Source of the DNA: Phycisphaerae bacterium
GTDB lineage: Bacteria; Planctomycetota; Phycisphaerae; Tepidisphaerales; Tepidisphaeraceae
Reading direction: 5' to 3'
DNA: 60,191 bases
Assembly: GCA_025924315.1 (NCBI GenBank)
Contig: JAICIO010000028.1
Coordinates: forward strand, 1 to 60,191
This document shows, piece by piece, positions 37,433 through 44,924 of this stretch (its first letter is position 1; each line of letters starts with the position of its first letter). Below the pieces are notes generated by a model. The model was not told where the DNA came from. It was given only the letters and a program-made list of their open reading frames with translations, and did no database searches. Both the position numbers and the translations under genes were made by a program.

Positions 37433-37544
37433 CCCCTCTCCCGGTAATCCGGGAGAGGGGCTTGTAGGGTCCGCTTCAGCGGACCGGTTATTTGTTCTAT
37501 GTGCGAGCACAATAGAATAACCGGTCCGCTGAAGCGGACCCTAC
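37433..37544. repeat. CCCTCTCCC hairpin followed by a complete GGTCCGC twin-hairpin element
   Basis: 37433-37460 is a single hairpin CCCCTCTCCCGG-TAAT-CCGGGAGAGGGG. 37464-37544 is a full GGTCCGC element with GTAG and CTAC feet and GGTTA/TAACC inner boxes; its core holds a further GTGCGAGCAC palindrome. Together they fill the cupredoxin to coxB spacer. Confidence 0.9.
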
Positions 37545-37611
37545 AGGAGCTCCAAGAGATTTGCAGCAACAGACGTTGTCGAAGCACCTCTTCTGCAAGG
37601 AGACCACGCAG

Positions 37612-38904: not shown

Positions 38905-38914
38905 AAGGACGCGT

Positions 38915-38985
38915 GTAGGGTGCGCTTCAGCGCACCGGTTATTTGTTTTCGAATCGAATAACCGGTGCGCTGAAGCGCACCCTAC
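38915..38985. repeat. Twin-hairpin element, GGTGCGC variant
   Basis: Same plan as the GGTCCGC copies, but the stem is GGTGCGC / GCGCACC in both hairpins: every change is compensated. GTAG and CTAC feet are intact. It lies 10 bp after the coxB stop. Confidence 0.9.
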
Positions 38986-39017
38986 ACAGAACGAACAAGA
39001 ACCACGGGAATAGAACC

Positions 39018-41056: not shown

Positions 41057-41115
41057 GTGACACGGGCTTTCAGCCCGTGCTGGCGGTTCATGCACGGGCT
41101 AAAAGCCCGTGTCAC
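41057..41115. repeat. Twin-hairpin element, GTGACACGGGCT family, complete
   Basis: GTGACACGGGCTTTCAGCCC then GTGC, a short spacer, GCACGGGCTAAAAGCCCGTG and TCAC. It lies between coxA and ctaA and ends 17 bp before the ctaA ATG. Confidence 0.88.
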
Positions 41116-41132: not shown

Positions 41133-42305
41133 ATGATCGCTGTTGACTACGCAACTCCGAAGACTCGCACGGGCAAGAAAGGCCTGGCACTACACTACGT
41201 CGCTCTCGTTACAGCGGCGGCGACGTTTCCGTTGATCTTCATGGGCGGGCTCGTCACGTCGAAACAAGCGGGTATGAGCGTGCCCGATTGGCCGACCAGC
41301 TGGGGCTACAACATGTTCGCCCTGCCGTTCAGCTACTGGGTCGGCGGAGTGTTTTACGAGCATACGCATCGCCTCATGGGCACGGTCGTCGGCTTTTGCT
41401 CGATTATCCTCACAATCGTTGCGTGGAAAACCGAATCCCGGCGATGGGTCCGCTGGCTCGCGACGAGCGTCTTGGCCGCAGTGATCTTCCAAGGGGTTTT
41501 AGGTGGCCTGCGCGTCGTGCTGGTCAAACTCGACCTCGCGATCGTCCACGCCTGCGTCGCCCAGGCCTTCTTCTGCCTCACCGCGTTCATGGCGCTGGTG
41601 ACGTCGCGCTGGTGGCTCAGGCACGTCACCCCAAATGGTGGCACCGACATTCCTGTCGGTGACGGGGCGAGGTACTCCTCGATCCGTTCATCGGCCACCG
41701 TATACGGTGACCGATCACAGACAAGAATGTCCGTGCCACCAAAAGAGGCGCCGAAAGCGGATCGCGCGTTCGTCGTCGCTTGCGGTTTCGCGGTTGCGAT
41801 CATCTATGGCCAGCTCATCATTGGCGCTGTCATGCGTCACTACGAAGCGGGCCTCGCCATCCCGGATTTCCCCACAACTTACGGAAAGATCCTTCCGCCA
41901 ACCACAACGGCGGAAGTGAATCACATCAACCTCACGCACCTCGACGCCCCGAATTTTACCCTCGGCCAGATGTGGCTCGCGTTCGGGCATCGCATCGGCG
42001 CGCTTCTCGTGACGATCGCGCTCGTTACGGTCTTCGTAATGGCGATCCGTCGCAAGATCTACATCCGGTCGATCGTGATCATCGCCGGGTTGCTCGTCGC
42101 GCAGATCACGCTCGGCATTCTCACCGTCCTGATGAAAAAGCCCGCCGACATCGCCTCGCTTCACGTCGCGGTCGGCGCGCTCACCTTGATGACCACCTTC
42201 GTTCTCTTCGTCCGCGCGTATGTTGTGGCACAGCCGCCCTCGGCTGTGCTTTCCCAAGAAACTCAAAACGATTTTGACGAAAAGGCTGTCGGCGTACCTG
42301 CATGA
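41133..42305 (+). CDS. ctaA: Haem A synthase (CtaA/Cox15), with a palindromic element in frame
   Basis: 390 residues from the ATG at 41133; a GTG at 41109 lies in the repeat. Oxidises haem O to haem A for the oxidase. Eight TM helices; the paired haem histidines are in YEHTHRLMG and AIVHACVAQA (first half) and AFGHRIGALL and ASLHVAVGAL (second half); the Cox15 motif is SVPDWPTSWGY. Between the halves, about residues 168-203 (PNGGTDIPVGDGARYSSIRS then MSVPP) come from a palindromic element (41637-41741). The tail QPPSAVLSQ is from a second element. The halves themselves are intact, so the enzyme may still work. Confidence 0.93.
   Translation: MIAVDYATPKTRTGKKGLALHYVALVTAAATFPLIFMGGLVTSKQAGMSVPDWPTSWGYNMFALPFSYWVGGVFYEHTHRLMGTVVGFCSIILTIVAWKTESRRWVRWLATSVLAAVIFQGVLGGLRVVLVKLDLAIVHACVAQAFFCLTAFMALVTSRWWLRHVTPNGGTDIPVGDGARYSSIRSSATVYGDRSQTRMSVPPKEAPKADRAFVVACGFAVAIIYGQLIIGAVMRHYEAGLAIPDFPTTYGKILPPTTTAEVNHINLTHLDAPNFTLGQMWLAFGHRIGALLVTIALVTVFVMAIRRKIYIRSIVIIAGLLVAQITLGILTVLMKKPADIASLHVAVGALTLMTTFVLFVRAYVVAQPPSAVLSQETQNDFDEKAVGVPA
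41637..41741. repeat. Palindromic element (GTGGCACCGACATTC family) inside ctaA
   Basis: The left arm (41637-41658) and right arm (41720-41741) are complementary at 20 of 22 bases. The core has its own inverted repeat (CGGCCACCGTATACGGTGACCG). The reading frame is kept. It sits in the loop joining the two halves of the protein. Confidence 0.88.
42225..42250. repeat. Half element (GTGGCACAGCCG family) at the 3' end of ctaA
   Basis: One hairpin, GTGGCACAGCCGCCCTCGGC then TGTGCT, read in frame as VAQPPSAVL. The matching second hairpin is missing. The last 18 codons of ctaA follow it. Confidence 0.88.
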
Positions 42306-43267
42306 AACCTGCTTCGGATATTTCTGAACTCCCGGATGGTGCTTTGTGTGTGGCACAGCCGCCCTCGGCTGTGCGCGCGCCGAGCACAGCCGAGGGCGGC
42401 TGTGCCACATGGTCCTCCAAGCTCGTCGATTACTACGAGCTCACCAAGCCGCGGATGAACTTCCTCATCCTCATCACGACGATGGTGGGCTTTTACATGG
42501 CCTCGCGCGGCGCGATCGACTGGCTGCGGCTCTTCAACGCCCTGCTCGGCACGCTGTTGTGCGCATCGAGCGCCGGCGTGATCAACCAGGTGATCGAGCG
42601 CAACTACGACCGGCTCATGGACCGTACGCGCAACCGACCGATCCCCGCCGGCCGCGTCCATCCAACCGAGGCGTTCCTCTTCGGCGCCGCTTGCGGCTTA
42701 GCGGGGATTACCGAGCTGCTCGTCACGGTGAACCCCCTCACCGCGGCGCTCGGCGCCTTCACGCTGCTCAGTTACGTCCTGATCTACACGCCGCTGAAGC
42801 GCATCACGTCGCTCAATACCGTCGTCGGCGCGATTCCCGGCGCGATCCCGCCGGTGATGGGTTTTACCGCGGCAAGCGGCGCGCTCTCTCCCGCGGCCCT
42901 CAGCATCTTCGGCATCCTCTTCCTCTGGCAGATGCCGCACTTCCTCGCGATCGCGATCCTCTACAAGCGCGATTACGCCGCGGGTGGGTTCAAGATGCTG
43001 CCGGTCGTCGATCCGCACCTCGAGCAGACACGCAAACAGATTCTGCTGTACGGCCTGGCGCTGATCCCGATGAGCCTGGTGCCCGCCCTGCAGCACACGG
43101 CCGGCGTGGTTTATTTCACCGCCGCCGTCTTGCTCGGGCTGGCATTCTTGAGCTTTGGCGTTTCGTGCGCCGCCACGCGCAGCCGCGAAGACGCTCGCAA
43201 ACTCTTTTTCGCGTCGATCATCTACCTGCCGCTGCTGCTTGCGGCGCTGATGCTCGACAAGATGTGA
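42302..43267 (+). CDS. ctaB: Protohaem IX farnesyltransferase (haem O synthase)
   Basis: 321 residues. Adds farnesyl to haem b to give haem O. UbiA fold: YYELTKPRMNFLILITTMVG, then NYDRLMDRTRNRPIPAGRV with the NxxDRxMDR Mg-diphosphate motif, then the second site YKRDYAAGGFKMLPV, with about nine TM helices. ATG overlaps the ctaA stop (ATGA), so the two are coupled. Residues ~17-36 (VAQPPSAVRAP then TAEGGCAT) are a translated palindromic element, giving a foreign N-terminal extension. The 3' end is duplicated (43365-43386). Confidence 0.95.
   Translation: MKPASDISELPDGALCVAQPPSAVRAPSTAEGGCATWSSKLVDYYELTKPRMNFLILITTMVGFYMASRGAIDWLRLFNALLGTLLCASSAGVINQVIERNYDRLMDRTRNRPIPAGRVHPTEAFLFGAACGLAGITELLVTVNPLTAALGAFTLLSYVLIYTPLKRITSLNTVVGAIPGAIPPVMGFTAASGALSPAALSIFGILFLWQMPHFLAIAILYKRDYAAGGFKMLPVVDPHLEQTRKQILLYGLALIPMSLVPALQHTAGVVYFTAAVLLGLAFLSFGVSCAATRSREDARKLFFASIIYLPLLLAALMLDKM
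42350..42408. repeat. Complete GTGGCACAGCCG twin-hairpin element inside ctaB
   Basis: GTGGCACAGCCGCCCTCGGC then TGTGC, a short GCGCGCCGA core, and GCACAGCCGAGGGCGGCTGT ending GTGCCAC. It begins at codon 17 of ctaB and stays in frame to the start of the conserved protein. Confidence 0.92.
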
Positions 43268-43386
43268 ATGGGCTGTTGGTTCGTTTGTAGGCTCCGCTTC
43301 AGCGGACCGGCTATTTGCTTCTTGGACGAATGAATAACCGGTCCGCTGAAGCGGACCCTACAAGGCTGATGCTCGACAAGATGTGA
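43246..43386. repeat. GGTCCGC twin-hairpin element flanked by a 22-bp direct duplication
   Basis: The element proper is 43287-43361 (GTAG...CTAC, with GGCTA and TAACC inner boxes). The last 22 bases of ctaB including its TGA (43246-43267) are repeated exactly at 43365-43386, just past the element. Such a duplicate on both sides is what an insertion with target-site duplication, or a tandem slip, would leave. Confidence 0.9.
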
Positions 43387-44844: not shown

Positions 44845-44924
44845 GTCATCCTGAGCGCAGCGAAGGATCTCGGGAAGGGAAAGCGATTCTCAATCCCGAG
44901 ATCCTTCGCTTCGCTCAGGATGAC
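44845..44924. repeat. Twin-arm element, ATCCTGAGCGAAGCG family
   Basis: GTCATCCTGAGCGCAGCGAA with GGATCTCGGG on the left, the complement on the right, and a ~20-base core. One base (GCGCAG for GCGAAG) is uncompensated. It is in the spacer between the oxidase operon and the ABC ATPase. Confidence 0.9.

Follow-up and report, generated by a model that had tools for sequence, protein, structure and literature searches.

A REPIN-like repeat read in frame in the haem A synthase gene ctaA of a Phycisphaerae bacterium, and RAYT transposases within the reading frames of other proteins

A 102-nt repeat element was found to lie in frame within ctaA, the haem A synthase gene, in the window examined here (a stretch of 60,191 nt that constitutes contig C28 of a 6.57-Mb, 97% complete genome assembly of a Phycisphaerae bacterium). 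The element belongs to a dispersed repeat family, has an ordered hairpin structure, leaves the frame of its host open, is absent from the ctaA genes of relatives and resides in a protein whose histidines are conserved. We consider it highly probable that this element is a REPIN which was copied into ctaA by a RAYT (REP-associated tyrosine transposase) and was tolerated in a variable loop of the enzyme. RAYTs themselves also occur, unusually, as insertions inside other proteins of related bacteria. Pfam families encoded in the genome, such as PF07596/DUF1559, are suggestive of Planctomycetota.

The element was first described as a palindrome in the middle of ctaA, with 20 of 22 arm bases complementary, a count that was reproduced when the arms were counted from position 41636. 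The inverted arms stand (the longest, at 41636-41662 and 41715-41741, are 27 nt in length, 89% complementary and spaced by 52 nt), but a single long palindrome does not; rather, two inverted GTGG-tagged REP hairpins enclose two inner hairpins in a REPIN-like anatomy (Table 1). At its best-fit limits the element comprises 34 codons, is preceded by TG and followed by CA, and has the composition GTGGCACCGACATTCCTGTCGGTG - 54 nt - CACAGACAAGAATGTCCGTGCCAC.

Table 1. Features of the ctaA region (window coordinates)
Feature	Coordinates	Strand	Reading or evidence
REP pair, third family (GTGACACGGGCTTTCAGCCCGTG), between COX1 stop and ctaA	41057..41115	+	
ctaA, haem A synthase (COX15-CtaA), 390 aa from ATG, element host	41133..42305	+	Pfam PF02628, E 1.9e-33
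REPIN-like element, 102 nt, in frame in ctaA	41638..41739	+	reads GGTDIPVGDGARYSSIRSSATVYGDRSQTRMSVPP
Left REP: GTGG + hairpin CACCGACA-TTCC-TGTCGGTG	41638..41661	+	exact pattern match; hairpin covariation
Inner hairpin 1	41662..41687	+	fold of 54-nt interior
Inner hairpin 2	41690..41715	+	fold of 54-nt interior
Right REP: GTGG + hairpin CACGGACA-TTCT-TGTCTGTG, one G-T pair	41716..41739	-	exact pattern match
Single REP, second family (GTGGCACAGCCGCCCTCGGCTGTG), in ctaA C-terminal tail	42225..42248	+	read in frame
REP pair, second family (GTGGCACAGCCGCCCTCGGCTGTG), near predicted ctaB start	42350..42408	+	read in frame

In the sequence fetched from the genome, 56 distinct paired copies of the ctaA-type repeat were identified. 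The REP consensus over these copies was GTGG + CACMGACA-TTCN-TGTCKGTG, in which the GTRG-type tetranucleotide that marks the 5′ end of a REP is followed by a short hairpin with an 8-bp stem and a 4-nt loop. Stem positions were paired in 880 of 896 cells, while 3′ halves dealt from other REPs over 1000 shuffles gave a mean pairing of 87% and a maximum of 90%, and the same columns paired as two outer arms matched in only 739 of 896 cells; thus, each end of the element is better read as its own hairpin. Two stem positions were found to covary (A-T in 57 and C-G in 51 REPs; A-T in 81 and G-C in 26), and the interior folded into two further hairpins in seven of the eight copies shown, the ctaA copy included. 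The ends were constant, with G preceding and C following 55 of the 56 copies each, and the two letters after the element were CA or CG in 53 of the 56. A length of exactly 100 nt was the mode (27 of 56), such that the inverted REP pair behaves as one unit of preferred length, as is characteristic of a REPIN. The copy number was high, as expected of a REP: the 24-base pattern was detected exactly at 44 + 34 sites (78) in the genome versus 0 + 0 in the control, and GTGGCACCGACATTC with up to two mismatches at 72 + 73 sites (145) versus 2 + 1 (3) in the reversed control. Of 26 genomes searched from the family of the window, two carried the 24-mer pattern, namely the source genome (78) and G021 (8). 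Across named genomes at least 115 stretches had this pattern, mostly from few genomes, with Ignavibacteria, Kapaibacterium, Gemmataceae and other Planctomycetota, as well as Verrucomicrobiota, Acidobacteria, Lentisphaerae and Coatesbacteria MAGs, being among the matches listed.

This structure raises the question of whether the element is kept for a role in the RNA of the oxidase operon (in pausing, or in the stability or processing of the mRNA), with the peptide as a by-product. The predicted folding is very stable, at -59 kcal/mol for the sense and -68 kcal/mol for the antisense strand, and such functions have been proposed for REPs (PMC3733652). However, the position of the element is not conserved in relatives and its copies occur in many unrelated places, and we regard an RNA role as unlikely.

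The ctaA gene sits between COX1 and ctaB, and its match to the heme A synthase model NF045570 was below the family cut-off. Consistent with what the first-pass annotation had proposed, the element was found to join two four-helix halves, as hydropathy analysis placed four transmembrane-like segments on each side of it (an eight-helix split that represents a choice among overlapping hydropathy windows). The retention of the haem histidines was likewise borne out, with the six positions (77, 79, 139, 236, 286 and 344) kept in all 22 usable relatives. The ORF was open across the element without a stop, in agreement with the earlier claim that the frame is maintained. These observations bear on whether ctaA was inactivated by the insertion and is now a decaying pseudogene. 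A 35-residue insert could harm the folding of a membrane enzyme; nonetheless, the ORF is open to its end, the histidines are conserved, the codon-usage signals before and after the element are in phase and the surrounding cytochrome oxidase genes are intact, all of which render decay quite improbable.

In-frame copies of the element were not restricted to ctaA. A copy was taken to be firmly within a gene when relatives lacked the insert, and by this definition two further cases were found in the same genome: (i) a beta-ketoacyl synthase (L088) with a copy of 117 nt, whose element-coded segment was absent in 6/6 aligned relatives; and (ii) an Eco57I-type methylase (L090) with a copy of 111 nt, whose segment was absent in 5/5, where in both comparisons only the closest matches of each search were aligned. 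As described for intragenic REPs, the ctaA, ketoacyl synthase and methylase copies lie wholly within the ORF and keep its frame, with lengths (102, 117 and 111 nt) that are all divisible by three. A 103-nt copy with domains on both sides (L087:5087-7807) is a probable fourth case. The entry phase was identical in all four and reads G[GS]T[DG]I. When stop-free readings were counted per offset, one offset had 7 of 112 versus 82 and 70 for the other two. Purifying selection on the frame is the simplest reading of these data, in which the numbers are small. In total, 35 open frames spanning a copy were listed, of which 30 were sent to Pfam and the ctaA frame was analyzed separately. A spanning open frame alone was rejected as evidence of a gene, since many 100-nt copies lie in long non-gene frames or before the start of a gene. 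Codon-usage scoring of the flanks was also tried as a means to place copies in genes, found to be too weak and left out of the counts; the ctaA copy was the only one of 59 to pass the threshold on both sides in phase, with three too near to contig ends.

Removal of the element before or during protein production, whether intron-like or by ribosome bypass, would yield a CtaA of normal length. The strong hairpins and the precedent of the IStron, a group I intron plus IS (PMC4227781), speak for such a process, but an Rfam scan of the window at gathering scores detected no intron family (one tRNA was the only match) and the three firm in-gene copies consist of whole codons, which would be needless if they were excised. 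We judge removal to be very improbable.

The loop between TM4 and TM5 was compared with that of relatives. The element lies inside a 52-residue loop with seven K/R residues, which by the positive-inside rule suggests that the loop is on the cytoplasmic side. A CtaA match was found in 24 relatives, and exclusion of L068 (a contig-end fragment) and L073 (wrong frame) left 22 that were usable. Measured from the TSRW motif to MRH, the loop is 77 residues here versus 37-54 in 20 of the 22 relatives, and it exceeds the 42 residues of a typical relative by 35, which compares with the 34 codons of the element. The remaining two relatives had long loops of unrelated sequence (88 residues in G013 and 70 in G003), and no REP pair was found in either by sequence or fold. 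In G003, which is of another genus, the loop (L054) is extended by an unrelated GGCACGAAGGCACGGAG-type repeat, and the ctaA loop may thus have accepted foreign sequence repeatedly. Neither a second strain nor a near-identical empty site was seen for the ctaA element, whose limits are thus best estimates. The G013 and G003 loops provide some precedent for an ancestral, lineage-specific CtaA loop that is palindromic by accident, yet since loops are short in 20 of 22 relatives, the other two are unrelated in sequence and the extra residues come from one of 56 dispersed copies, this explanation is scarcely credible, and the ancestral, conserved loop that the first-pass annotation had set against its own interpretation is contradicted.

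Overall, these findings favor the copying of a REPIN into ctaA. In such a model the element would be a non-autonomous mobile unit of inverted GTGG-tagged REP hairpins with two inner hairpins, and a RAYT, an HUH/Y1 transposase that would cut single-stranded REP DNA under the guidance of the GTRG tetranucleotide, would have copied it into the gene, probably as single-stranded DNA. Copies that land in genes would be expected to persist only if whole codons are added, the frame stays open and the loop is tolerant. The ctaA copy presumably survived because it has whole codons and an open frame and resides in a variable, charged and probably cytoplasmic loop between the four-helix halves. With about 35 residues added and the haem-ligand histidines untouched, the CtaA enzyme most likely still works. 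From the genomic evidence we infer mobilisation by a RAYT, the identity of that RAYT, translation of the insert and its neutrality for the enzyme.

Other repeats were detected around the oxidase genes. The neighboring palindromes are of the GTGACACGGGCTTTCAGCCCGTG and GTGGCACAGCCGCCCTCGGCTGTG families, which upholds the earlier view that the ctaA element is of a different family from its neighbors; in addition, REPs of the second family lie in frame in the C-terminal tail of ctaA and close to the predicted ctaB start, in line with the suggestion that several families can enter coding DNA. REP pairs of a further, GTAGGGTCCGCTTCAGCGGACC-type family were found around the cytochrome oxidase genes (window 37463-37545, 38914-38986 and 43285-43363), and downstream of the oxidase operon is an inverted repeat, GTCATCCTGAGCGCAGCGAAGGATCTCGGGA (window 44845-44924), with arms that are 97% complementary.

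The genome was examined for RAYTs, and ten PF01797 matches were found. The RAYT on C20 is flanked by GTGGCACAGCC... REPs (the ctaB type), the RAYT on C124 by GTGACACGG... REPs (the type at 41057), and the loci on C56 and C235 are near GTAGGGTSCGC... repeats. None of the ten loci of the assembly was directly flanked by a ctaA-type REP; a cognate RAYT, the usual though not universal partner of a REP family, was thus not found for this family in its own genome. One ctaA-type copy is positioned about 0.85 kb away from the RAYT on C20, whose own flanking REP is a different one, and the best match in the genome to a RAYT of the cognate type was only 43% identical. Elsewhere, RAYTs were identified among ctaA-type REPs in two Planctomycetota MAGs (L271 and L217) and a Verrucomicrobia MAG (L187).

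These three RAYTs (at the loci L271:2180-6253, L187:672-4856 and L217:1-2199) are flanked by the ctaA-type REP and lie within an open frame resembling an Eco57I methylase, in each case after the ...YTPREIV.YM... region of the methylase start. The frame continues to a ...GSGAFP... motif and the Eco57I domain in L271 and L187, while in L217 it runs to the end of the stretch with Pfam reporting the RAYT only, such that its methylase identity is by likeness to L271. The L187 ORF has two additional REP-coded stretches. In the source genome, a whole RAYT with two REPs was found in frame in a 915-aa ORF for a DinG/YoaA helicase (L013/L291, G000:C124), where the flanking REPs include the GTGACACGGGCTTTCAGCCCGTG family. 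At this DinG site a whole RAYT was present in seven of the 22 family genomes covered, the source genome included (the RAYT of G003 runs into a contig end, and G016 was left out because its sequence is truncated at a contig end). Two others, G001 (L318) and G022 (L315), have 86-87 residues like a REP-coded peptide without a RAYT, possibly a deletion product or a REPIN; the remaining 13 of 22 have 29-65 residues. The RAYTs from the seven DinG genes group in a single clade (support 97/96), but the DinG tree is too weakly resolved to separate a single entry followed by losses from multiple entries (parsimony gives 5 changes, and the AU test of a single clade gives p 0.099). In L275 (G022) and L280 (G021), a ThiD2-ThiE protein continues in frame at its C-terminus into a RAYT.

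In a draw of 199 genomes of the phylum, 32 were found to have a related RAYT (E 1e-15). Thirteen loci, picked mainly for their long frames and thus not a sample, were read further, and 11 of these (L353 and L363 being outside of the domain scan) were scanned for domains. A second family besides the RAYT was detected in 11/11: FabZ in four (FabZ-like hosts L344, L346, L347 and L348), AlaS in two (L341 and L343), Eco57I in two (L351 and L352), and PurH (L350), a PglX-like methylase and a DEAD helicase in one each. The FabZ, AlaS and PurH hosts have one apparent RAYT site per protein. PurH scored above its NCBIfam cut-off (540 vs 528), as did its inner RAYT against the REP-transposase cut-off (80.6 vs 80); several other hosts scored below whole-protein cut-offs, as expected of interrupted proteins. 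Upon alignment of 22 embedded RAYTs, both HUH histidines and the tyrosine were present in 22/22. Internal start codons precede the RAYT in 18 of the 22, and it is therefore possible that the RAYT is made separately. No intein domain appeared in the Pfam/NCBIfam results for the embedded ORFs scanned. The data come entirely from assemblies, including many MAGs. Where one site is shared by several genomes, as for DinG, FabZ and Eco57I, a misassembly is unlikely, but single cases may reflect one.

Based on these observations, we put forward the wider proposal, which we hold to be evenly balanced, that planctomycete-like bacteria harbor a RAYT lineage living inside genes as 'translated REPtrons', with the ctaA element as a short and non-autonomous version of such an insertion. 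A translated REPtron would consist of an active-looking RAYT plus flanking REPs in one open frame, located in protein loops of hosts that would include DinG, AlaS, FabZ, PurH, and Eco57I-type and DUF1156 methylases, with the transposase made as an internal domain. The REP-coded ends may serve as small linkers with proline and glycine, which may explain how a 200-residue RAYT is tolerated. Selection may keep at least one frame of such REPs open, which would permit mobility without gene killing, RNA splicing or protein splicing. Mobile repeats would in this manner contribute preformed segments to the interior of a membrane enzyme, and the embedded RAYTs point to transposases as internal domains of normally essential proteins. 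Should these RAYTs be both translated and active, a gene would not have to be disrupted by insertion and protein loops would be a habitat for mobile DNA.

The system was compared with those published. In-frame REP dimers inside genes were already reported by Di Nocera et al. 2013 (PMC3733652), and the ctaA copy alone is thus an instance of a known phenomenon. In that study over half of intragenic inserts were dimers or groups coding 20-30 residues, and intragenic GTAG repeats were most numerous in the verrucomicrobium Opitutus terrae, with GTAG-20 elements mostly carrying GTGG. Shared features are the paired in-frame REPs in ORFs and the several REP families per genome; however, the hosts highlighted were mostly DNA-repair genes, in contrast to the membrane haem enzyme, ketoacyl synthase and methylase found here, and the present elements have two extra inner hairpins and 34-39 codons. 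A RAYT inside a host ORF was not found in the accessible portion of that paper, and none was recognized in the literature searched, which was thin in subscription papers and did not include bioRxiv preprints. The Rickettsia palindromic elements (cited in PMC3733652) are similar in being palindromic repeats in frame in unrelated proteins, but RPE-4/-6 are CGTC-type, a tag that is lacking here where the tag is GTGG, and CGTC repeats were reported without associated transposase genes. With the REPIN/RAYT system of Bertels and Rainey 2011 (PMC3116915) the ctaA element shares a mobile unit formed by two inverted REPs, constant REP ends and an association with RAYTs, whereas classic REPINs are extragenic and here copies lie within coding frames, with the cognate RAYT not found in the assembly. 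For one RAYT, in vitro cutting at CA or CC was compatible with a GTGG guide (PMC8266576). The RAYT core with HUH and Tyr and the flanking REPs resemble the 'REPtron' of the TnpA(Y1) superfamily survey (PMC6006769). Proteins longer than expected were set aside in that survey as fusions or annotation errors, a category into which the embedded RAYTs would fall, and the phenomenon may thereby have been filtered out. Judged from sequence, what appears to be new beyond the known intragenic REPs is the pair of inner hairpins and the RAYTs embedded within host proteins.
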